Of a DNA stretch of 25,080 nt, positions 12,352 through 25,080 are shown piece by piece (position 1 is the first letter of the stretch; each line of letters opens with the position of its first letter). The stretch is from positions 1 through 25,080 of IMG/VR virus record IMGVR_UViG_3300034068_000868; one strand, 5' to 3'. The position numbers were made by a program, and so were the translations under genes. Source of the stretch: a virus. A model generated the notes under the pieces. It did not search any database. It had not been told where the DNA came from and worked only from the letters and a program-made list of their open reading frames with translations.

Positions 12352-12764
12352 TAGTGGTTGCCCTCCAGAAGTGGTGTAATGAGAAAAACCTGATTGCCGG
12401 ATAACTTTTGAAATCCCTGCCGTTCCAAGATGCGAGCAATTCCGGGGGCGGTAAACACGGCCATGGTGTGGTAGCCAAAGCCGCGAGCGATTTTTTGCAG
12501 GCAGGTCATGCAATGCCGGAAAGCCTCCAGCGCCGTTTTCAGCGGGAGTCGCGGCCTGCTTACGGCGTGGTCGGCCATGCACATGCCAGACGAGTTGTCC
12601 ATGCACAGGAAAAGGGCGCTCACTGGCTCGCCTTCCATCTCACAAATGACGCCAAGCTTTGGGAGCATCGGCAGAGGGCGCGGATGCTTCCCGTGGAAGT
12701 AGCACCACTCGCTGATCATGTCGTGGTCGGCCTCGGTGAATTCGCGCATGGTGATGTTATTCAT
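12351..12764 (-). CDS. GNAT-fold protein in the gp13 position
   Basis: The 137-residue product begins MNNITMREFTEADHDMISEW, a typical first strand and helix of GNAT acetyltransferases (xIR.FTxxDxxxI). GEPVSALFL resembles beta-strand 3-4, and a C-terminal GFGYHTMAVF...ILERQGFQKL matches the usual beta5-alpha4 region of the fold. The acetyl-CoA-binding Q/RxxGxG/A loop is not clear, so enzymatic activity is doubtful. T7 gp13 is a small protein of similar size with the same kind of sequence, located just after gp12, as here. The start codon lies inside the end of the gp12-like gene (8-base overlap, ATGAATAA) and the stop overlaps the next start (TAATG). A virion-assembly role is inferred from position. 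Confidence 0.6.
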   Translation of the reverse strand: MNNITMREFTEADHDMISEWCYFHGKHPRPLPMLPKLGVICEMEGEPVSALFLCMDNSSGMCMADHAVSRPRLPLKTALEAFRHCMTCLQKIARGFGYHTMAVFTAPGIARILERQGFQKLSGNQVFLITPLLEGNH

Positions 12765-15423
12765 TACCGAAAGTATCCCACACGGGTTGAAGGGCGATGA
12801 CGGCCATTGGGTAAGGGGCAGTTTGCCTCAGAGTCACATCGGCGTCGAGACCGAACGCTCCGGCGAGGATCATTTTCTGGTCGCCGGTGGAAACCGTGTC
12901 GGCGAGGGCATACCACTCGCCGTTGTTCGTGCGGATTTCTCCTCCCCGGCTTTTGTAGAGGCGGGCGATGATTTTGTGGATGCGCTTCTTGCGGCCTTGT
13001 GAGGAACCGTCTTCCAAATCCATGTCGAGCTTCATGGGTGTGAGGGTGCTGGTGTAGGCCAAGCCGACATAGCCTGCGGCTGCGACTGGGACGGTGATCG
13101 CTGCGCTGGCGACCGTGCGGGTGACGGGGGCTTGGCCGTCTTGCATGACGGTGACGGTCTTGCCGTTGAAACGGTCGAGACCGGAGACCGTGCGGCCTGC
13201 CGCCCCGGAGACGAAGGCGACATGGCCGTCGAGGTAGCGCCATGAGGCGGCGGTCTGGTCGTCGAGGTATTTGCGCCAGAGGAGTGGGAACCGCTCGATG
13301 GTGCGGTAGGTCTGCCCGGAGACGGTGCGCTTGACGACCATCCAGACCTCATCCTCCGTGCCGTTGCCGTAGATGGTGGCAACCGATTCGACATCGGCAT
13401 CGTCGCCGATGACATGGCGATGCCAGCCGACGACCTTCTGGTCGCGCTCGTAGGTCATGGCGATGAGCGTGCCATCGCCGCGCACGCACCACAGGATGGC
13501 GTCGGGTTGTTGCTGGTAGGCGATCTCGACGATTTCGCCACTGGTGATGTGTTCGGCCAACAAGGTGAGGTCCGGCGCGACCCATCCGTCTTTGTTGAGT
13601 TCGTAGACGAGTTCGCGCACCTTGCGTCCGTTGCGCTGGACGAAGAGGAGGACATCGTTGACCAGCGCGGCCCGCATGTATTTGCTGCCGTAGGAAGACT
13701 GCCGGTTCGCCTGCACATTGGTGGATGAAAGCGAGGCCGAGGAGTCGGCGCTGCCGATGGTCCACTCGTCGCCGGATGTGCCGATGAGGAGTTGGCTCTG
13801 CGAATACATCCAATTGATGCGGTTGCCCTCGGAGGCGGCGAGGGTGAATTGCACGGCATCGCTTGCGGTGACGCCGGTCTTGAAGTTCTCGAAATTGTCA
13901 ATCTGACTGCACCAGATCGTGTTTGGCTGGGAGGATGTGCCGCCGAAGCAGAGGCGCTGTTCGTGCATGGCGACTGAGCGCGGGTAGCCGCGCTTGGCAG
14001 AGAATGCCGCTTCGGACCAGAACAGGGTCTTCGCTCCGTTTCGGGCAGAAGCGGATAGCCAGCGGGTCACATTGGCTCCGGCTTTTGTTGAGGATGTCAA
14101 CCCATTTTGGATAATCCACTTGGTGACATCGAAGGTTGCGGTCGATGTGTGAGGCGTTGTGCATTTGTAATTTGCACCGCCCTGCGTGACATAATCTCCG
14201 ACGACATAAACGGTCGATGCCGCCCAAGTCGCCATGTAGGTGTCCACGATGGTCACCAGACCTCCGGTGCGGAAATCCGAGCTTTCGATGACGGCGCGGC
14301 CCTTGGTGTTGGAGGTGTAGTTGAGGACTCGGATGAGCATGCCGCAGCGGGCGCTTTCCGTTCCCGTGGTGATGATGTTGGATTCGCCGGAGGCGCGGTC
14401 GTATTCCTTCACGACCTCCATTTGGCTGATGTTTTCGATATAGGCAAACGGACAGGTTGTGGCTCCGCTGTTTGCGACAGGGTAAGTATAGGCGTCCTCA
14501 CTGGTCACCGTGATCGTCGCCAGACTGGTTCTGCCTGTGTGAAATGGGGCTGTATTTCCGGAAGCATTGATGGCCAGCAGGTCGCCGGTGTTGTAGCCAT
14601 GGGCGGCATGCGAGACGGTGGCGGTCGCGCCGGAGCGGGTGAGGGTTCCTGTCTGCGTGTATCCCTTCTCCATTTTGTCGTTCGGGTAGCGCAGGATTTG
14701 AATTGAGGCGTCCCAGATACCGAAGGTCGTGAAAGTCCAGTCTCCCTCGACATCCATGAGATCGCTGAGGTAGTTCCCGGCGATGTCCACCGACACGGTG
14801 GCGAGCGGGCGTTTCCACTCCAGCGCCCACTGCCCGCCGTTCATGCTGTCGTCGAAGATAGGGGTGGATGCGGTGAGTGTCGTGTAGCCAAGTTCGCTGG
14901 AAACCCGAATCGTGGTGTCCGTGGTGTTCTGCTCAAACAACGGGGGGTAGTCGAATAGAACATCCTCAAAAGTCCAATTGTTGTCGGCGAGGCGGGAGAG
15001 CTTGCGCGGCGGGTAGTTCGCATGGGCGAAATACATGAGATCGTTGATCTGCACGAACTGGACTTCGCGCAGGTGCGCTCCGACATACGGGTGGGTCACT
15101 TCCAAAATGCCGCCAGAGGCGTTGGTCTGGAGTTGTCCGGTCGCCGCGCTCCAGAAGCGCAGGTAGCCTACTCCCATTTCGAGGATGAACCGGGTGGTGG
15201 TGCTGAAGTTGAAGCCGATGAGGCGGACCTCGCCTGCGGCGGGGTTTTTGGGCGGGCCGCGAAACTCTGTGCCGGGGCGGCGGATGACGCCGCCGTAGGG
15301 GAGGATTTGGAAGTTCTCCAGCGTGCGGCAGGCGCTGCGGTATTTCTCCAGGCTCGTCCGGGCGTCGATGAAGGGGGAGACTTCACCGGCGTTGAAGGAG
15401 GGGTAGAAATCGAACTTCGGCAT
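12757..15423 (-). CDS. gp12-like tail nozzle protein (tail tubular B) with extra modules
   Basis: This 888-residue protein opens with FNAGEVSPFIDARTSLEKY and GGVIRRPGTEF (about 44-54), the signature of a widespread family of podovirus tail proteins. The segment at about 480-600 (MHEQRLCFGG, QPNTIWCSQIDNFENF, LIGTSGDEWTIGS, VNDVLLFVQR) follows the order of T7 gp12 (RNRLGFLSGENI.., LIWSDEAQFVL). Two modules look inserted: an Ig-like repeat with SGATATVSHAAHGYNTGD at about 265-316, and a chitin-binding-3-like motif with WAASTVYVVGDYV and ANYKCTTPH at about 400-437. T7 gp12 forms a hexameric nozzle below the gp11 ring, and the same role is inferred here. The gene follows the small membrane coiled-coil gene after four bases. 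GGAGG lies 12 bases before the ATG. Confidence 0.75.
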   Translation of the reverse strand: MPKFDFYPSFNAGEVSPFIDARTSLEKYRSACRTLENFQILPYGGVIRRPGTEFRGPPKNPAAGEVRLIGFNFSTTTRFILEMGVGYLRFWSAATGQLQTNASGGILEVTHPYVGAHLREVQFVQINDLMYFAHANYPPRKLSRLADNNWTFEDVLFDYPPLFEQNTTDTTIRVSSELGYTTLTASTPIFDDSMNGGQWALEWKRPLATVSVDIAGNYLSDLMDVEGDWTFTTFGIWDASIQILRYPNDKMEKGYTQTGTLTRSGATATVSHAAHGYNTGDLLAINASGNTAPFHTGRTSLATITVTSEDAYTYPVANSGATTCPFAYIENISQMEVVKEYDRASGESNIITTGTESARCGMLIRVLNYTSNTKGRAVIESSDFRTGGLVTIVDTYMATWAASTVYVVGDYVTQGGANYKCTTPHTSTATFDVTKWIIQNGLTSSTKAGANVTRWLSASARNGAKTLFWSEAAFSAKRGYPRSVAMHEQRLCFGGTSSQPNTIWCSQIDNFENFKTGVTASDAVQFTLAASEGNRINWMYSQSQLLIGTSGDEWTIGSADSSASLSSTNVQANRQSSYGSKYMRAALVNDVLLFVQRNGRKVRELVYELNKDGWVAPDLTLLAEHITSGEIVEIAYQQQPDAILWCVRGDGTLIAMTYERDQKVVGWHRHVIGDDADVESVATIYGNGTEDEVWMVVKRTVSGQTYRTIERFPLLWRKYLDDQTAASWRYLDGHVAFVSGAAGRTVSGLDRFNGKTVTVMQDGQAPVTRTVASAAITVPVAAAGYVGLAYTSTLTPMKLDMDLEDGSSQGRKKRIHKIIARLYKSRGGEIRTNNGEWYALADTVSTGDQKMILAGAFGLDADVTLRQTAPYPMAVIALQPVWDTFGNE

Positions 15424-19226: not shown

Positions 19227-19249
19227 TTGATTTATTTGGTTGTTGGTTT

Positions 19250-19264
19250 GGTATCAGTCAAAAC
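19250..19264 (-). promoter_or_regulatory. 15-base motif copy 5, upstream of the fibre gene
   Basis: Exact consensus GTTTTGACTGATACC on the minus strand, in the 70-base gap between a small fibre-accessory gene and the coiled-coil fibre. The surrounding bases make a 5-bp hairpin (19254-19267; TCAGT, loop, ACTGA). An 11-base direct repeat GTTGGTTTGGT flanks it at 19242-19252 and 19271-19281. Confidence 0.6.
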
Positions 19265-19296
19265 TGACGGGTTGGTTTGGTGTTATGGGGAAAGTT

Positions 19297-19536
19297 TTAG
19301 AAGGCTCCGCAGTCGATGGTCTCGACCATGAGTCGGTAGGTGCTGGCGGCGGCGTCCCAGAGCCATTGCACATGGGTGTCCTGCGCGTGGTAGATGCGGG
19401 CCTCCTTGCCGGGCTGCGGGAAGTCGGCGGCGCTGGGGTAGATGACGAGCTGCTTGATGCTGTCCTCTGGCAGGACGATTGTGAACTGGGAGAGGTCCAG
19501 TTGCTGGGTGATGTTGGTCTCGGTGATCGTCGTCAT
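19297..19536 (-). CDS. Small fibre-accessory protein
   Basis: This 79-residue protein begins MTTITETNITQQLDLSQFTI. Its second half, SAADFPQPGKEARIYHAQDTHVQWLWDA, fits the FP..G....IY.A.DT...Y.WDG..Y motif repeated in many phage tail-fibre and receptor-binding proteins. There is no membrane segment. Its ATG overlaps the stop of the third gp11-like gene (ATGA), so it is coupled to it. After its stop a 70-base gap carries a copy of the 15-base motif. It may form a short connector between tail and fibre. Confidence 0.65.
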   Translation of the reverse strand: MTTITETNITQQLDLSQFTIVLPEDSIKQLVIYPSAADFPQPGKEARIYHAQDTHVQWLWDAAASTYRLMVETIDCGAF

Positions 19537-21152
19537 GCGTAGGCGGCGGTCTCCCGGTTGGTCCACGCGACATTGGTCGCCTTGGTGGTGGTAGTGACGG
19601 CTCCGGCGGTGGTGAGCGCGGAGCGGGTGATCGACCATTTGGCCACGGCGGCGGGGGAGCCGGTGGCGGGGATGTCGGAGTTGAGGAGCAGCCCGTAGTA
19701 GGAAAAGGTTCCTGCGGTGTTGAGCGCGAAGGCGTGGATGGAGTTGTCGGGATCGCGCTGGGTGGTGGGCGAGTAGAGGCCAAGGGCGATGACGACGATT
19801 TTCGCGCCGTTCGGAATAGCCTGGGTAAAGGTGATCGTGCTGGAACCTTGGTTGACGAGGTAGTCGGTGGTGGGTTCCTGCGCGACCCCGTTGATGGCGA
19901 CCATGACATGGTTGGGGTCGCTCGACTTGAGGCCGGAGACCGCAAAGGTTTTGAGCGTGCCGTTGCCGGTGAGGGTGGTCTTGGCGCTGGAGAGGAGACC
20001 CGCCTGCGGGATGGTGAGGTTGAGGGTCTGGGCGGGAGCCGCGCCGGTGATGGTGGCTGAGGGGGTCGCGCCGGTAGTGACCGTGCCGATGGAGAGGGAG
20101 TTGACTGGACCCGCCGCGCCGTTCGTTCCGTTCGTGCCTGCTGGACCTTGCGGAAGGCCGAAGTTGAGGACGGCGGTGTTGCCTGTGCCGGTATTGGAAA
20201 CGGTGGGGGTGGAGCCGGTCGGGAGGTTCGTAACATCGCCGACTTGGACGAGGAGCGAGGGATAGCTGATGCCCCCTCCGGGTCCGCTGGACTTGGCCTG
20301 CGCCTCGATGCCGTCGCCGCCGTTGCGGGAGGAAACGAGTTTCGAGGACATCCAAGCGGGCTTGATGCGTCCCTTGCGCTCGGTGGAGTCCCGGCGCATG
20401 GCGGGGTTTTTGCCGACAATGTCGGTTTCCTTCGCGAGGAGCGCGGCCTTGGCGGCATCGCCGGTGAGCGGGATCGCGAGCTTGGCCGCGAGGCTTGCTG
20501 TGAGCAGGTCGATGAAGAGGGAATCGAAGAGGGTGACCTCGGTGACCTTGCGGACATACTCCAGAGTGATCGCCGTGCCGAGCCACACATCCCAGTCGGT
20601 GGTCCACCCGGCTGTGATTCCGGGTTGCTTGGTGGACCCGGTGACCATGCAGCGGTAGACTGCCTCGGCGCTGGTGACGACATTATCGACTTCGTAGGTG
20701 CGGCCCGCGACCCAACTTGGAGCGCCGGAGTCGGAGTTTGACAGGACAAAGTTGCCGGACACCTCCCACGCCGAATCGCCGGTCGTGTAGTCTTGGTCGT
20801 TCACCCGGAAGACGCGCAGGCAGTCGGATGGGATGGCGTAGCGGTAGGCCCACTTGTATTCCGGGCGAGGGACGCTCTCGGCCACCGTGGTGGATTTCAT
20901 CGCCCATGTCCACGATCCGGTGAGAAGAAGGGAGTCGCGCACCTGTGGGTAGAGCGACTTGGCGAGGAGCATCGCCTGCGAGGAGGGTCCGAACTGCTCG
21001 GCTGTGCCAACGCGCAGGATCGCTTGGCGGCAGAGTTCGTCTTCGGTAAGGGTGGACGATGGGCGCGAGGAGGCGCGGGCCTCGACCGCATTTTTCAATG
21101 CGGGCTTGCCTGCGAGGAACTGGAGTTCCTTGAATAACTCCTCGGACTTCAT
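19533..21152 (-). CDS. Third gp11-like protein fused to a fibre-type C-terminus
   Basis: This 539-residue protein starts with MKSEELFKELQFL, identical to the neighbouring gene, then carries one gp11-like domain (about 38-255; ELCRQAILRVG, WTWAMKS, YAIPSDCLRVFRVN, LFIDLLTASLAAKLAIPLTGD, KNPAMRRD). A segment at about 146-190 (WVAGRTYEVDNVVTSAEAVYRCM...W) is a chitin-binding-3-like insertion inside that domain. Beyond residue 280 the protein changes to a fibre: a short collagen-like run (GLPQGPAGTNGTNGAAGP), Gly/Thr-rich beta repeats, and a unit with LTGNGTLKTFAV, VMVAINGVAQEP, TDYLV, ITFTQAIPNGAKI (about 393-458) common in phage fibres. It would link the gp11 ring to external fibres. It starts three bases after the second gp11-like stop. 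Confidence 0.75.
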   Translation of the reverse strand: MKSEELFKELQFLAGKPALKNAVEARASSRPSSTLTEDELCRQAILRVGTAEQFGPSSQAMLLAKSLYPQVRDSLLLTGSWTWAMKSTTVAESVPRPEYKWAYRYAIPSDCLRVFRVNDQDYTTGDSAWEVSGNFVLSNSDSGAPSWVAGRTYEVDNVVTSAEAVYRCMVTGSTKQPGITAGWTTDWDVWLGTAITLEYVRKVTEVTLFDSLFIDLLTASLAAKLAIPLTGDAAKAALLAKETDIVGKNPAMRRDSTERKGRIKPAWMSSKLVSSRNGGDGIEAQAKSSGPGGGISYPSLLVQVGDVTNLPTGSTPTVSNTGTGNTAVLNFGLPQGPAGTNGTNGAAGPVNSLSIGTVTTGATPSATITGAAPAQTLNLTIPQAGLLSSAKTTLTGNGTLKTFAVSGLKSSDPNHVMVAINGVAQEPTTDYLVNQGSSTITFTQAIPNGAKIVVIALGLYSPTTQRDPDNSIHAFALNTAGTFSYYGLLLNSDIPATGSPAAVAKWSITRSALTTAGAVTTTTKATNVAWTNRETAAYA

Positions 21153-21155
21153 GCG

Positions 21156-22898
21156 TTATTGGCGAACGACCTGCGCGGGTTGGGATTCCATGAGTTGGGA
21201 GAGCTTCATGGCGAGGGTGACCGTGAGCATGTTCACGAAGACCGCTGGGAACTTGCTGGCGTCGGTGACGATGGCGGTCGTCTCAATCTGGACCGTGGGC
21301 GTGACATCTGTGTGGAGGTAACCGCCGACGATTTCCCATTTGCCGAAGTTCTCGTCTTCGTCCACGCCATTAACCCGAAGCACCTTGATGGTTGTGATCG
21401 GCAGCAGGTAGCGTTTGGCGTAGCCGAAGGACGGAGGCACGGCATCGGCGGCGACGGTTGTCTGGACTCGGGCGAACTGCCAGTCGAAGTCGGCGAGGAG
21501 TTCGTTGCGTGTCTGGTCGAAGAGACTGGTCGCGATGGACATTGGTTCTCCGTAGGGCTTGAAGACATCGGCGCTTCCCACCCGGAGGATGGCTTGGCGG
21601 CAGATTTCCGAGACCGTGTTGGCCGAGGAGGTCGTGCGGGGTTTCGCGGATTTCTCGATCTGGTTCTTGATCGATGGGCGCTGCATCGTCTCGGCGGCCA
21701 CTTGGATCATGGCGTTGACAATGTTCGCATCGGCGGTCAGCGGGAGAGCGATCTTGGCCGCGAGGCGGCAGATGAGCGCCTCGATGAATGGAGCGGGGAA
21801 TTCTGACACCGTTGTGATGAACGAGGTGTAGTCCACGATGAGAGGCGCTCCGATGTCCGTGTGCAGGAATCCGCCGACGATCTCCCATTGGCCGAAGTTC
21901 TCGGTGGTGTCGATGTTGTTGACCCGTAGCAGTTGGATGAAATCCGTTGGGAGCGTGTATTTTTTTGTATACCCCAAAGCCGGACCCGGAGTCGTTGTCG
22001 ATGACGCAAGCACTGGCAGCACTGGCTGTGAATTTAACTGGGGCTGAATGAGTGCAACTTGCTTCTTGGCAAATGCCCACGGCACATCGGAGAGGAGTTC
22101 CTCCAGGGTGTGGTCGTAGAAGCTGTTCGCGAAGACCATCGGCTGGCTTTTGAGGGATTCCAAGGAGCCGAGGCGCATGATCGCCTGTTTGCAAATATGC
22201 GTGCGGGTCGTCATTGTGCTGGATGCGCTGGCATCGGCGACCGTGGCGATCTCACGCTGAAGAGCGGGGCGTTGGATGATGAAGTCAAATTCCTTGGCTG
22301 CTGCCATGGCTTGGTCACCGGCTCCCAGAGCCATGGCGAGCTTGTAGGCAAGGCGAGCGACAACGAGTTCTATGAAGATCGCTGGGTATGCTGTTTCGTT
22401 ATAAGTTACAAGTGCAGGTGTTACACTTGAATTTGATGGCATTGCAATGTAATCGACTCGAATTGGACTGACGATGTTGGTGTGGATGAATCCGCCAACC
22501 ACCTCCCATGTCCCGAAGTTTTCCGAGGAATCAATGTCCTCGACCCGGAGAATTCTGATGGTTCCTGCGGGGATCGCGTAGCGGACCGAGTAGCCCGATT
22601 TTGGTGCAGCGTTGTCTTTGACAATATCCTCACTCTGCATGCGGGCGAAGCGCCAATCATATTCCGAAAGGATTTCATTGATGGTCTGCCCGTAGAACTT
22701 CGCCGCAAAGACGAAGGGCTGCCCGTTCTGCTGCTTGAAAGCGTCTGCGTTGCCCACACGCATGACCGCTTGGCGGATGATCTCGCTTGCGGTGGTGGTG
22801 AGCGTTCCGGAGTAGTTGGCGACTGCCTCGACTGCCTCCAGGAGGGCAGGCTTCGACATCAGGAATTGGAGTTCTTTAAAGAGTTCTTCGGATTTCAT
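21156..22898 (-). CDS. Second gp11-like protein with three tandem domains
   Basis: The 580-residue product contains three copies of the gp11-like (tail tubular A, gatekeeper) unit: about 38-215, 232-412 and 429-571. Each copy has the same ordered landmarks: [ST].IC[RK]QAI[LM]R[LV]G, an aromatic D[FVY].W.FA strand, a Y.YxLP....I..LRVN.[IV]D segment, ENFG.WEIVGG[FY][LI]HT, FPA.FIE or similar, L..KLA.PL, and Q[RK]P[AS]. The first 30 residues (MKSEELFKELQFLMSKPALLEAVEA) match the linker that normally ends one unit. The gene starts immediately after the previous stop (TAAATG) and ends three bases before the next ATG. In T7 a single-domain gp11 forms a dodecameric ring under the portal. Here the ring is probably built from several domains. 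Confidence 0.8.
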   Translation of the reverse strand: MKSEELFKELQFLMSKPALLEAVEAVANYSGTLTTTASEIIRQAVMRVGNADAFKQQNGQPFVFAAKFYGQTINEILSEYDWRFARMQSEDIVKDNAAPKSGYSVRYAIPAGTIRILRVEDIDSSENFGTWEVVGGFIHTNIVSPIRVDYIAMPSNSSVTPALVTYNETAYPAIFIELVVARLAYKLAMALGAGDQAMAAAKEFDFIIQRPALQREIATVADASASSTMTTRTHICKQAIMRLGSLESLKSQPMVFANSFYDHTLEELLSDVPWAFAKKQVALIQPQLNSQPVLPVLASSTTTPGPALGYTKKYTLPTDFIQLLRVNNIDTTENFGQWEIVGGFLHTDIGAPLIVDYTSFITTVSEFPAPFIEALICRLAAKIALPLTADANIVNAMIQVAAETMQRPSIKNQIEKSAKPRTTSSANTVSEICRQAILRVGSADVFKPYGEPMSIATSLFDQTRNELLADFDWQFARVQTTVAADAVPPSFGYAKRYLLPITTIKVLRVNGVDEDENFGKWEIVGGYLHTDVTPTVQIETTAIVTDASKFPAVFVNMLTVTLAMKLSQLMESQPAQVVRQ

Positions 22899-23924
22899 TT
22901 ATTGGGATGGTTGGCTTGTTGGGAATTCCACGATGGAGGCGAGTTTGAAGGCGAGGGAGGCGGTGAGGATTTCGACGAAGATCGGCGGGAACTTGGCCAC
23001 ATCGGCGACGGTGGCGGTGTGATCGAGAATGATGGGGGTCACGAAGTTGGTGTGAATGAATCCACCTACCACTTCCCACTGCGCGTTGTTCTCCGAATCG
23101 TCGATGTTGTTGACCCGGATGATCTGTTTGGAGTCTACGGGGATGGGGTAGCGATACGAGTAGCCGGTCCTGGGAGCGGCTGCGTCTTTGGCGATGGATA
23201 ATTGGGCGCGGGCGAACGACCATTGGAAGTCGGCAAGCAGGCTGTCGCGAACCGACTCGTAGAGGGATTGGGCGATGACCATTGGTTCGCCATGCGGCTT
23301 GAACAGGTCGGCAGAACCGACACGCAGGATGGCTCTGCGGCAAATCTCCGAGACGCTCACGGGAGCGGCGGTGGTGCGAGCCGGAGCGTAGGCTTCGGTG
23401 GCATTGCCGAATGCAGGCTTCTGGATGGTGGCCGTGTAGAGTTGGACGCACTGGGTGAACAACTCCTTCGATCCCGTGAGAGGCATCGCGAGGACGGCGG
23501 CGAGCTTCATGGAGAGCGCTTCGATAAAGATGGCCGGGAACAGGGTGGTGGTCGTGACAAGCGCGATGTAGTCGAGAACAAGAGGGATTTCTGCGGTTGA
23601 AGGGAGGTTTGTATGAATCTTGCTGCCGAGGATTTCCCAAGTGCCGAAGTTCTCGCTGGCATCGATGTCATCGAGCCGGATGGCGCGGATGAAATCGGTT
23701 GGTTGGTCGTATTGATACGAGTAGCCGGTGAGCGGGACCGTGCCGGTGGCGAGATTGGCTTGCTTGCGGCAGAACTGCCAATCGAACTCGGCTTGGAGTT
23801 CCTCGACCGTCTGCGCGTAGAACAAGGTGCAATACTGCGCTTGCGCGTTCGCGGCATTCAGCGCAGTGATGCGCGAATCTCCGAGGCGGGCGAGGGCGAG
23901 GTTGCAGATGTCGAGGTCTGTCAT
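22899..23924 (-). CDS. First gp11-like protein with two tandem domains
   Basis: The 341-residue product opens with MTDLDICNLALARLGDSRI, the classic start of tail tubular A proteins of T7-like phages. Domain 1 covers about residues 1-178 and includes FDWQFCRKQ, YQYDQPTDFIRAIRLDDID, ENFGTWEILGSKIHT and LFPAIFIEALSMKLA. Domain 2 (about 191-335) has SEICRRAILRVGSADLF, FQWSFARAQ, YRYPIPVDSKQIIRVNNID, WEVVGGFIHT and FPPIFVEILTASLAFKLA. Between them lies SKELFTQCVQLYTATIQKPAFGNATEA, the linker that reappears at the start of the next two proteins. No Shine-Dalgarno sequence is visible. The gene is separated from the capsid gene by a terminator-like hairpin, so it may depend on readthrough. Confidence 0.8.
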   Translation of the reverse strand: MTDLDICNLALARLGDSRITALNAANAQAQYCTLFYAQTVEELQAEFDWQFCRKQANLATGTVPLTGYSYQYDQPTDFIRAIRLDDIDASENFGTWEILGSKIHTNLPSTAEIPLVLDYIALVTTTTLFPAIFIEALSMKLAAVLAMPLTGSKELFTQCVQLYTATIQKPAFGNATEAYAPARTTAAPVSVSEICRRAILRVGSADLFKPHGEPMVIAQSLYESVRDSLLADFQWSFARAQLSIAKDAAAPRTGYSYRYPIPVDSKQIIRVNNIDDSENNAQWEVVGGFIHTNFVTPIILDHTATVADVAKFPPIFVEILTASLAFKLASIVEFPTSQPSQ

Positions 23925-23992: not shown

Positions 23993-24901
23993 TTAGAGGA
24001 CTTCGTCGCAGGCGATCTCGACGACTTTCTTCTCTTCCATGCGCACGGCAGCAAGGCTGGCCACGGAGCGGATTTGAAGGGAGTGCGAGAGGTCGGGACG
24101 GACATCCATCATGGTCTTGAGGCCACGCTCGGCGAGGATGATGCCGCTCTTCACATAGGCGAAGCAGGAGCGGATATCGACGGCCAGCGGGAGCTGTTGG
24201 CTGCGGCGGAATTTGAAACCCATGAAGGTGTTCAAAGTGCCGTCCACAAGGGCGCGAACCGTGTTGTAGTCTGCCGAGGTTGCCTCGACCGTGCGGAGCA
24301 GGTCTTGGAGTTGCTTGGCGGACACCACCATGATGCGCTCTTCCTCTTCATCGACTTCGTTGGAGTCGAAGAGGAACTTCGCTTGGCGGAGCTTGGCAAT
24401 GGTGAGGCCGGAGTTGGCGACTGCGCCGGACTCGACAAAGCCAACTGCGATTTTCTGGCCTGCTGGCAGGACGGTGGCGGTTGTGCCAGTCACGCCGGTA
24501 AAGGCTGTGCCGCCGAGGGCGTCGATGATGACCTTGTCGCAAGTGCGGGCGTAGGCTGCGCCGTGCGATTGGATGATCGGGCTTGTGGGAAGCACGACTT
24601 CGCCGAGGAACTGCTCGTCGAACTCGTCAACGAGTTTGGCGCAGTCGTAGTTCAGTGGACGAATCCAACGCTTGGCCATCGCTTGATCGCTGATACGGGT
24701 GTCGCGTGAGCGGTCCGTGATCTGCGTCATGGAGGTTACATCGAGTTGGTTGTAGGATTTCTCCTTCCCTTCGATGGAATCGAGGGTGCAATATTCTTTC
24801 AGCTTGCTGTTCTTTTGCTGAACGAGGTGTTTCCAGTTGCTATCGAACTGGGTCGTGAAGTGATCGGGGATGTTCGTCAGAACTCCATTGAGATTTGCCA
24901 T
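23993..24901 (-). CDS. Major capsid protein
   Basis: The 302-residue product has the layout of a podovirus capsid family: an N-terminal helical arm (MANLNGVLTNIPDHFTTQFDSNWKHLVQQKNSKL), then DRSRDTRISDQAMAKRWIRPLNYD, VDEFDEQFLGEV and SPIIQSHGAAYARTCDKVIIDALGGTAFTGVTG, then LPAGQKIAVGF, KFLFDSNEVDEEEERIMVVSAKQLQDLL, FMGFKFRRSQQLP and a C-terminal beta region. An HK97-type fold is expected from family knowledge. It is the only gene here with a textbook ribosome-binding site (AAAGGAG, six bases before ATG), in line with a highly made protein. A hairpin-forming copy of the 15-base motif ends 26 bases upstream, and an intrinsic terminator follows. A scaffold or portal gene would be expected just outside the right edge. 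Confidence 0.85.
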   Translation of the reverse strand: MANLNGVLTNIPDHFTTQFDSNWKHLVQQKNSKLKEYCTLDSIEGKEKSYNQLDVTSMTQITDRSRDTRISDQAMAKRWIRPLNYDCAKLVDEFDEQFLGEVVLPTSPIIQSHGAAYARTCDKVIIDALGGTAFTGVTGTTATVLPAGQKIAVGFVESGAVANSGLTIAKLRQAKFLFDSNEVDEEEERIMVVSAKQLQDLLRTVEATSADYNTVRALVDGTLNTFMGFKFRRSQQLPLAVDIRSCFAYVKSGIILAERGLKTMMDVRPDLSHSLQIRSVASLAAVRMEEKKVVEIACDEVL

Positions 24902-24927
24902 TTTGGCTCCTTTGGTTTGAGTGAGTT

Positions 24928-24942
24928 GGTATCAGTCGAAAC
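24928..24942 (-). promoter_or_regulatory. 15-base motif copy 6, upstream of the capsid gene
   Basis: Minus-strand GTTTCGACTGATACC has one mismatch to consensus and ends 26 bases before the capsid ATG. The surrounding bases form a perfect 6-bp hairpin, ATCAGT, loop, ACTGAT (24931-24946). TGGTTTGA repeats flank it at 24913-24920 and 24946-24953, as GGTTTG repeats flank copy 5. Confidence 0.6.
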
Positions 24943-24954
24943 TGATGGTTTGAT

Positions 24955-25015
24955 CTGCTCCCTTCGCTTCCGAGTGTCCCGTGTGGGGTCAGCGGCGGCG
25001 GGTATTAGGGAGCAG
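24955..25015 (-). repeat. Inverted repeat in the capsid leader
   Basis: CTGCTCCCT (24955-24963) and AGGGAGCAG (25007-25015) are perfectly complementary, enclosing 43 GC-rich bases. It lies between motif copies 6 and 7, so a transcript from copy 7 would carry this stem while one from copy 6 would not. There is no T-run, so it may be an RNase III-type processing site or a stabilising stem. Confidence 0.5.
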
Positions 25016-25065: not shown

Positions 25066-25080
25066 GGTATCAGTCAAAAC
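25066..25080 (-). promoter_or_regulatory. 15-base motif copy 7, at the window edge
   Basis: Exact consensus GTTTTGACTGATACC on the minus strand, ending at the last base of the window, 164 bases before the capsid start. Its upstream flank is outside the window, so the hairpin cannot be checked. Together with copy 6 it would give the capsid gene two promoters. Confidence 0.55.

Follow-up and report, generated by a model that had tools for sequence, protein, structure and literature searches.

Six gp11-type adaptor domains in three genes that break inside domains: a candidate tail barrel of variable length in an uncultured short-tailed phage

The tail of a podophage is generally regarded as having a fixed build, with one portal, one adaptor ring and one nozzle. 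The locus described here raises the question of what a short-tailed phage makes of six adaptor-like domains encoded by three adjacent genes (A, B, and C; Table 1), found in a stretch of 25,080 bases that was analysed whole and is referred to below as the window. The minus strand carries the structural genes, namely those of the capsid protein, A, B and C, fibre-type proteins, the nozzle, and internal virion proteins, and the close relative L007 has an ordinary T7-type portal gene upstream (PF12236, E 1.6e-124; PHROG 332). The closest known systems, by sequence and by the order capsid protein, adaptor, nozzle, are the adaptors of BPP-1, epsilon15, BcepC6B, phiV10, and Carin-1 (PHROG 394; PDB 8ck1 chain E). 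The arrangement of genes is similar to that in BPP-1, epsilon15, and BcepC6B, where a single adaptor of ~200 aa is encoded directly 5' of the nozzle gene; adaptors of the BPP-1 type have one domain in one gene, whereas the window has six, spread across three genes, and fibre genes separate gene C from the nozzle gene.

The earlier note on this DNA had claimed that A, B, and C hold two, three, and one copies of one T7 gp11 (TTPA)-type domain, and both the count and the coordinates were borne out. A profile search of each domain, which the note had proposed as a check, matched PHROG 394 ("tail protein") to all six copies (E 7.7e-47 to 1.1e-18); these are the only six matches to the profile in the 25 kb record, and the same search across 14 control genomes returned none. 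All 15 domain pairs align with 25.6-53.4% identity and score 23-98 SD above shuffled sequences, with no shuffle (200 per pair) equalling the real score. Domain a is the closest of the six to the adaptors of single-copy phages and matches the Carin-1 connector in phmmer (8ck1_E, E 1.5e-11). Pfam gave no curated match for the domain, SU10_adaptor on B1 being sub-threshold only (a match to Aurora-A_bind was judged to be due to chance). The array is also revealed by DNA repeats, several of them spaced 1740 nt, and in a blastn search of the region against phages the only match was a short one to mycobacteriophage tail genes, at window ~20000-20130, where C is collagen-like.

Structure prediction for the gene B protein, also proposed in the note, likewise indicates a gp11-type fold. 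The AlphaFold model (mean pLDDT 72, pTM 0.39) has three repeats with an identical order of helices and strands, and every one of its strong structural matches is an adaptor, neck, or ring protein of a phage, among them the Carin-1 connector 8ck1_E (Z 15.8), LME-1 9efk_AA (Z 14.9), T7 gp11 6r21_M (Z 11.5), KP32 TTPA, SU10, and P22 gp4, with ring proteins of phicrAss001 lower (Z 8.3 and 8.0). A four-domain protein of a relative gave the same kind of adaptor list. T7 gp11 and KP32 TTPA (6r21; 5mu4) share this fold of helix bundle, beta domain, and C-terminal helix; T7 gp11 is a single domain with ~10% sequence identity to the window domains and forms a single, 12-fold ring (PMC6702177). Judged by profile and predicted fold, the array domains are thus confirmed as members of the PHROG 394 adaptor family, from which they depart in number, since its adaptors have one domain in one gene and here there are six over three. 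No description of fused or duplicated adaptor domains was found in the literature searched, many subscription papers being beyond reach.

Table 1. Features of the window, with the evidence for each.
Feature	Position	Strand	Description and evidence
Source record	25,080 bases		IMG/VR virus record; fragment of uncultured short-tailed phage
Major capsid protein	23993..24901	-	Adjoins array; PF19821 E 9.9e-74
Gene A	22899..23924	-	341 aa; two adaptor domains (a, zA); ORF and two PHROG 394 stretches
Domain a	23379..23924	-	PHROG 394 E 7.7e-47; 8ck1_E E 1.5e-11
Domain zA	22902..23366	-	PHROG 394 E 4.5e-27; stops after helix 4, without helix 5
Gene B	21156..22898	-	580 aa; N-terminal helix 5 and three adaptor domains (B1, B2, z)
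B N-terminal ~30 residues (helix 5 missing from zA)	22809..22898	-	Internal-junction profile and AlphaFold helices
Domain B1	22227..22808	-	PHROG 394 E 1.1e-18
Domain B2	21621..22220	-	PHROG 394 E 3.4e-30; adaptor structural match centred here
Domain z	21159..21614	-	PHROG 394 E 1.1e-22; stops after helix 4, without helix 5
Gene C	19533..21152	-	539 aa; N-terminal helix 5, one adaptor domain, fibre-like tail
C N-terminal ~30 residues (helix 5 missing from z)	21063..21152	-	PHROG 394 alignment and junction profile; two-domain relatives unbroken
Domain C1	20343..21062	-	PHROG 394 E 1.1e-30; most divergent class
C1 insertion, CBM5/12-like	20580..20723	-	CBM5/12 likeness in relatives only, sub-threshold
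C-terminal fibre-like region of C	19536..20297	-	Collagen-like run and DUF4183-like part; ~250 aa
Nozzle (gp12-type) protein	12757..15423	-	PHROG 376 E 7.9e-175

The positions of the two gene breaks, which the earlier note did not remark on, are a second feature of the array. In sequence and in the predicted structure, the A/B and B/C breaks both fall within a domain: the C-terminal helix that follows the bundle is present in a, B1, B2, and C1, but zA and z end after helix 4, and their helix 5 is encoded at the start of the next gene. The opening ~30 residues of B and C (MKSEELFKELQFL..KPAL...) match the helix-5-plus-linker segment found between domains within the chains, and a profile of such internal junctions recognised 26 of 26 distinct N-termini at 10.9-23.9 bits, the best of 4661 scored shuffles reaching 10.2. 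PHROG 394 positions 3-186 align through the TAA stop of B into C, and the same is seen in relatives. In the AlphaFold model of B, the N-terminal helices (residues 3-14 and 17-27) mirror those after B1 (194-208/211-216) and after B2 (391-404/408-418), and the last domain is without helix 5. In two-domain relatives, the chain is unbroken at the same place, linking the first domain's helix 5 to C1. The junctions are tight: 37 of 55 overlap by 4 nt (ATGA), 13 abut, 4 are spaced by 3 nt, and 1 overlaps by 1 nt, and both breaks in the window are in frame. By eye only, no clear Shine-Dalgarno sequence was seen at B or C, which would fit translation coupled to the preceding gene. Such breaks would be natural fragment complementation inside a virion part.

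The number of domains varies widely among relatives. Scans of IMG/VR with the domain profile, counted gene by gene and clustered at 97%, gave totals of 2, 3, 4, 5, 6, or 7 domains in related contigs, with 1, 2, 3, or 4 domains per gene. The 2+3+1 layout was found in 21 clusters in addition to the window and the 3+1 layout in four (omitting L065, whose first gene is perhaps cut by the contig end); 4+1, 2+1, and 3+3+1 layouts also occur, as does a two-domain form encoded by one gene (18 loci, 12 distinct sequences). The total of five is complete in L052 and L053 and is seen in three contigs cut at one end (L051, L054, and L082), and the total of seven comes from L079, in which the contig ends within C, and L078, in which C would be expected past the contig end. 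Twelve multi-gene records (11.8 to 40.3 kb) were searched over their full length, and all matches in them were confined to the array; the same held for two-domain records. Single-copy relatives had one domain in 95 of 95 contigs, and no extra copies were found in the isolates searched (Nostoc, Pseudomonas Ab31 and Shamal, Pelagibacter Baldr and Skadi-11, BPP-1, and Caulobacter Jess A phages), the two profile fragments of Ab31 and Shamal forming one domain.

The variation has a fixed frame. In a tree of 85 domains, those of multi-gene arrays sort into the classes a, X, zA, B1, B2, z, and C, and the arrays read, with a slash at each gene break, a z/C; a B2 z/C; a X z/C; or a X B2 z/C for three to five domains and a zA/B1 B2 z/C (the window) or a X zA/B1 B2 z/C for six to seven. 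Class a is first and class C last in every array, and the middle alone varies. Two-domain genes read a-C, with a first domain that is a-like at its ends and most z-like in its middle; this form may be ancestral or a later collapse. Domain number also differs among close relatives. For example, L083, L056, and L023, with three, four, and six domains, are 94-97% identical in C1 and 83-90% in a, and L063 and L052, with four and five, are 96% identical in C1 and 91% in a. On a poorly resolved C1 tree of 44 rows, at least 16 changes of array type are counted, and recombination is likely. Class zA is sister to class z (support 100/99); as for a possible block duplication of z/C1 into zA/B1, a grouping of B1 with C1 is absent from the best tree without being rejected (p-AU 0.41). 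It is very improbable that the extra copies are tolerated passengers of unequal crossing over, with one or two used in virions: tandem homologous domains invite crossing over and the changes of array type are frequent, but all copies are intact, in frame, and class-conserved over many contigs.

The last domain is strongly conserved, the window C1 being 78-89% identical to those of relatives. Its insertion matched CBM5/12 in L083 (E 2.8e-5, below the cut-off), and the window gene C protein had no Pfam match to that module. The fibre-like region that follows matched PHROG 21962, a tail protein (E 9.4e-11), PHROG 18673, a tail fiber (E 0.0021), and, sub-threshold, DUF4183 (E 0.0054). In L066, L078, L079, and L082, B2 has an insertion of ~85 residues within its beta domain, and that of L066 had no Pfam match.

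The earlier note had suggested, as speculation, that six different domains used twice would fill such a 12-fold ring, which would amount to 2 A + 2 B + 2 C. Six divides 12, as do the totals of two, three, and four in relatives, and the short linkers would also permit neighbours to lie side by side. However, totals of five (L051-L054 and L082) and seven (L079 and L078) exist, and as these do not divide 12, a single closed ring fails as a general rule; near-identical phages, such as the five-domain L052 and the four-domain L063, also differ in their counts. The precedent of phicrAss001, with its separate stacked 12-fold rings, likewise stands against this suggestion (PMC10172136), which is disfavoured here and regarded as quite improbable. 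A related arithmetic, in which each gene forms a pseudo-12-fold ring of its own (6 A, 4 B, and 12 C) and these rings are stacked, accommodates the counts of 1, 2, 3, and 4 domains per gene, all of which divide 12, but small numbers divide 12 anyway. In addition, every split z domain calls for a single N-terminus from the protein after it, which the numbers 6, 4, and 12 do not match, and two-domain genes hold both end classes in one chain, making this arrangement improbable.

We lean towards the reading that A, B, and C together form an extended tail barrel of stacked 12-fold rings, one per domain, between portal and nozzle. The three genes would encode one colinear run of six gp11-type domains, in which the portal-side ring is likely to be formed by domain a, spacer rings would come from the middle domains, and C1 would form the last ring, pointing the fibre-like tail outward and having the nozzle protein as its expected partner. 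Two cuts interrupt the run, both directly ahead of a domain's final helix, which the N-terminus of the next protein would supply; A, B, and C would thereby join in a fixed order and at 1:1:1 stoichiometry (12 of each), the order of the rings following that of the genes. A stack of one ring per domain accepts any total, which would explain the coming and going of middle domains, and it gives the two ends different jobs, one on the portal side and the other on the side of fibre and nozzle. A 12-fold stack with 12 of each chain also suits the split domains, since every z domain would be completed by one N-terminus from the following protein. Gain or loss of middle domains would then make the tail longer or shorter by whole rings, and C may act as a fibre carrier. 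Several points were counted against stacking: the resemblance to the crAss ring proteins is modest (Z 8.3 and 8.0), in T7 helix 5 grips the portal, which raises the matter of its grip in the lower rings, and linkers of ~15-20 residues would have to carry the chain from where helix 5 ends to the following ring. The domain folds of the AlphaFold models are good, but their interdomain arrangement is unreliable (pTM 0.39 and 0.32) and does not separate stacked from side-by-side domains. More generally, it is an even call whether tail-barrel length is set digitally, at two to seven whole rings, by how many adaptor domains are fused in tandem, with the chains joined via gene-split domains.

It could also be supposed that domain a alone forms the ring and that the others are outward arms or a collar ending in the fibre part of C. 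This would agree with the likeness of a to single-copy adaptors, with the fibre-like end of gene C, and with the adaptor of Vibrio phage K300 (PHROG 9239; L225:3905-6157), where a gp11-type domain bears a long C-terminal extension, as in gene C, although K300 has one domain only and its extension consists of three Ig-like domains and a Gly-rich end. Against this, each of the six copies has kept the landmarks and fold of an adaptor, and helix 5 is retained for every copy, in trans where the chains are cut; such arms or collars are considered rather unlikely.

Stacked rings have a precedent in phicrAss001, where four paralogous ring genes give a barrel of five dodecameric rings in a stack, and the number of ring genes varies among crassviruses, other podoviruses having been seen with only one ring (PMC10172136). 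The phicrAss001 rings R1-R5 (gp43, gp40, gp35, and gp34; PDB 7qog and 7qoj) share with the window array the presence of several paralogous gp11-like domains whose number varies among relatives. Their stacking between portal and muzzle is proven, whereas in the window it is inferred. The phicrAss001 rings come from separate single-domain genes, whereas in the window group two, three, or four domains are fused per chain, chains break inside a domain, and the last copy bears a fibre-like tail. The array would work like the crAss barrel without being classed as a member of that system, the ring genes there being separate and the fold match modest (see the two Z scores above). While phicrAss001 departed from the fixed-tail rule via separate ring genes, another lineage, of the BPP-1/epsilon15 type, may have done so via domain fusion. 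The variable domain number among close relatives suggests tails made of stacked rings, with a ring number that evolves quickly, and the natural relatives with two to seven copies and similar ends offer a ready series for relating ring number to tail length and host reach.

Several minor observations concern the rest of the record. Residues 399-429 of the nozzle protein (window 14226-14137) match the carbohydrate-binding module CBM5/12 (PF02839, E 3.6e-9). Two fibre-type genes (window 18199-17831 and 19226-18252, minus strand) have similar N-termini, and the longer has a sub-threshold match to Mtd_N (E 0.14) and an extended series of short coiled-coil-like repeats. A single internal virion protein of 2905 aa (window 9647-930, minus strand) matches DUF7178 (E 9.5e-21) and, sub-threshold, ART-PolyVal, which is ADP-ribosyltransferase-like (E 9.9e-5). 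As for hosts, a first pass of the genome-contig scan gave no match, and a second found one Verrucomicrobia MAG contig (L328) with the two-domain form, its C1 54% identical; the protein is an a-C form of 431 aa without a fibre tail, and the contig is a weak hint that the hosts of the group are Verrucomicrobiota. A short direct repeat, GGTATCAGTC.AAAC, occurs at window 19248-19279 (intergenic, 5' of a fibre gene), 24926-24957 (5' of the capsid gene), and 25066-25080 (the window end), and is possibly a promoter or another regulatory element.
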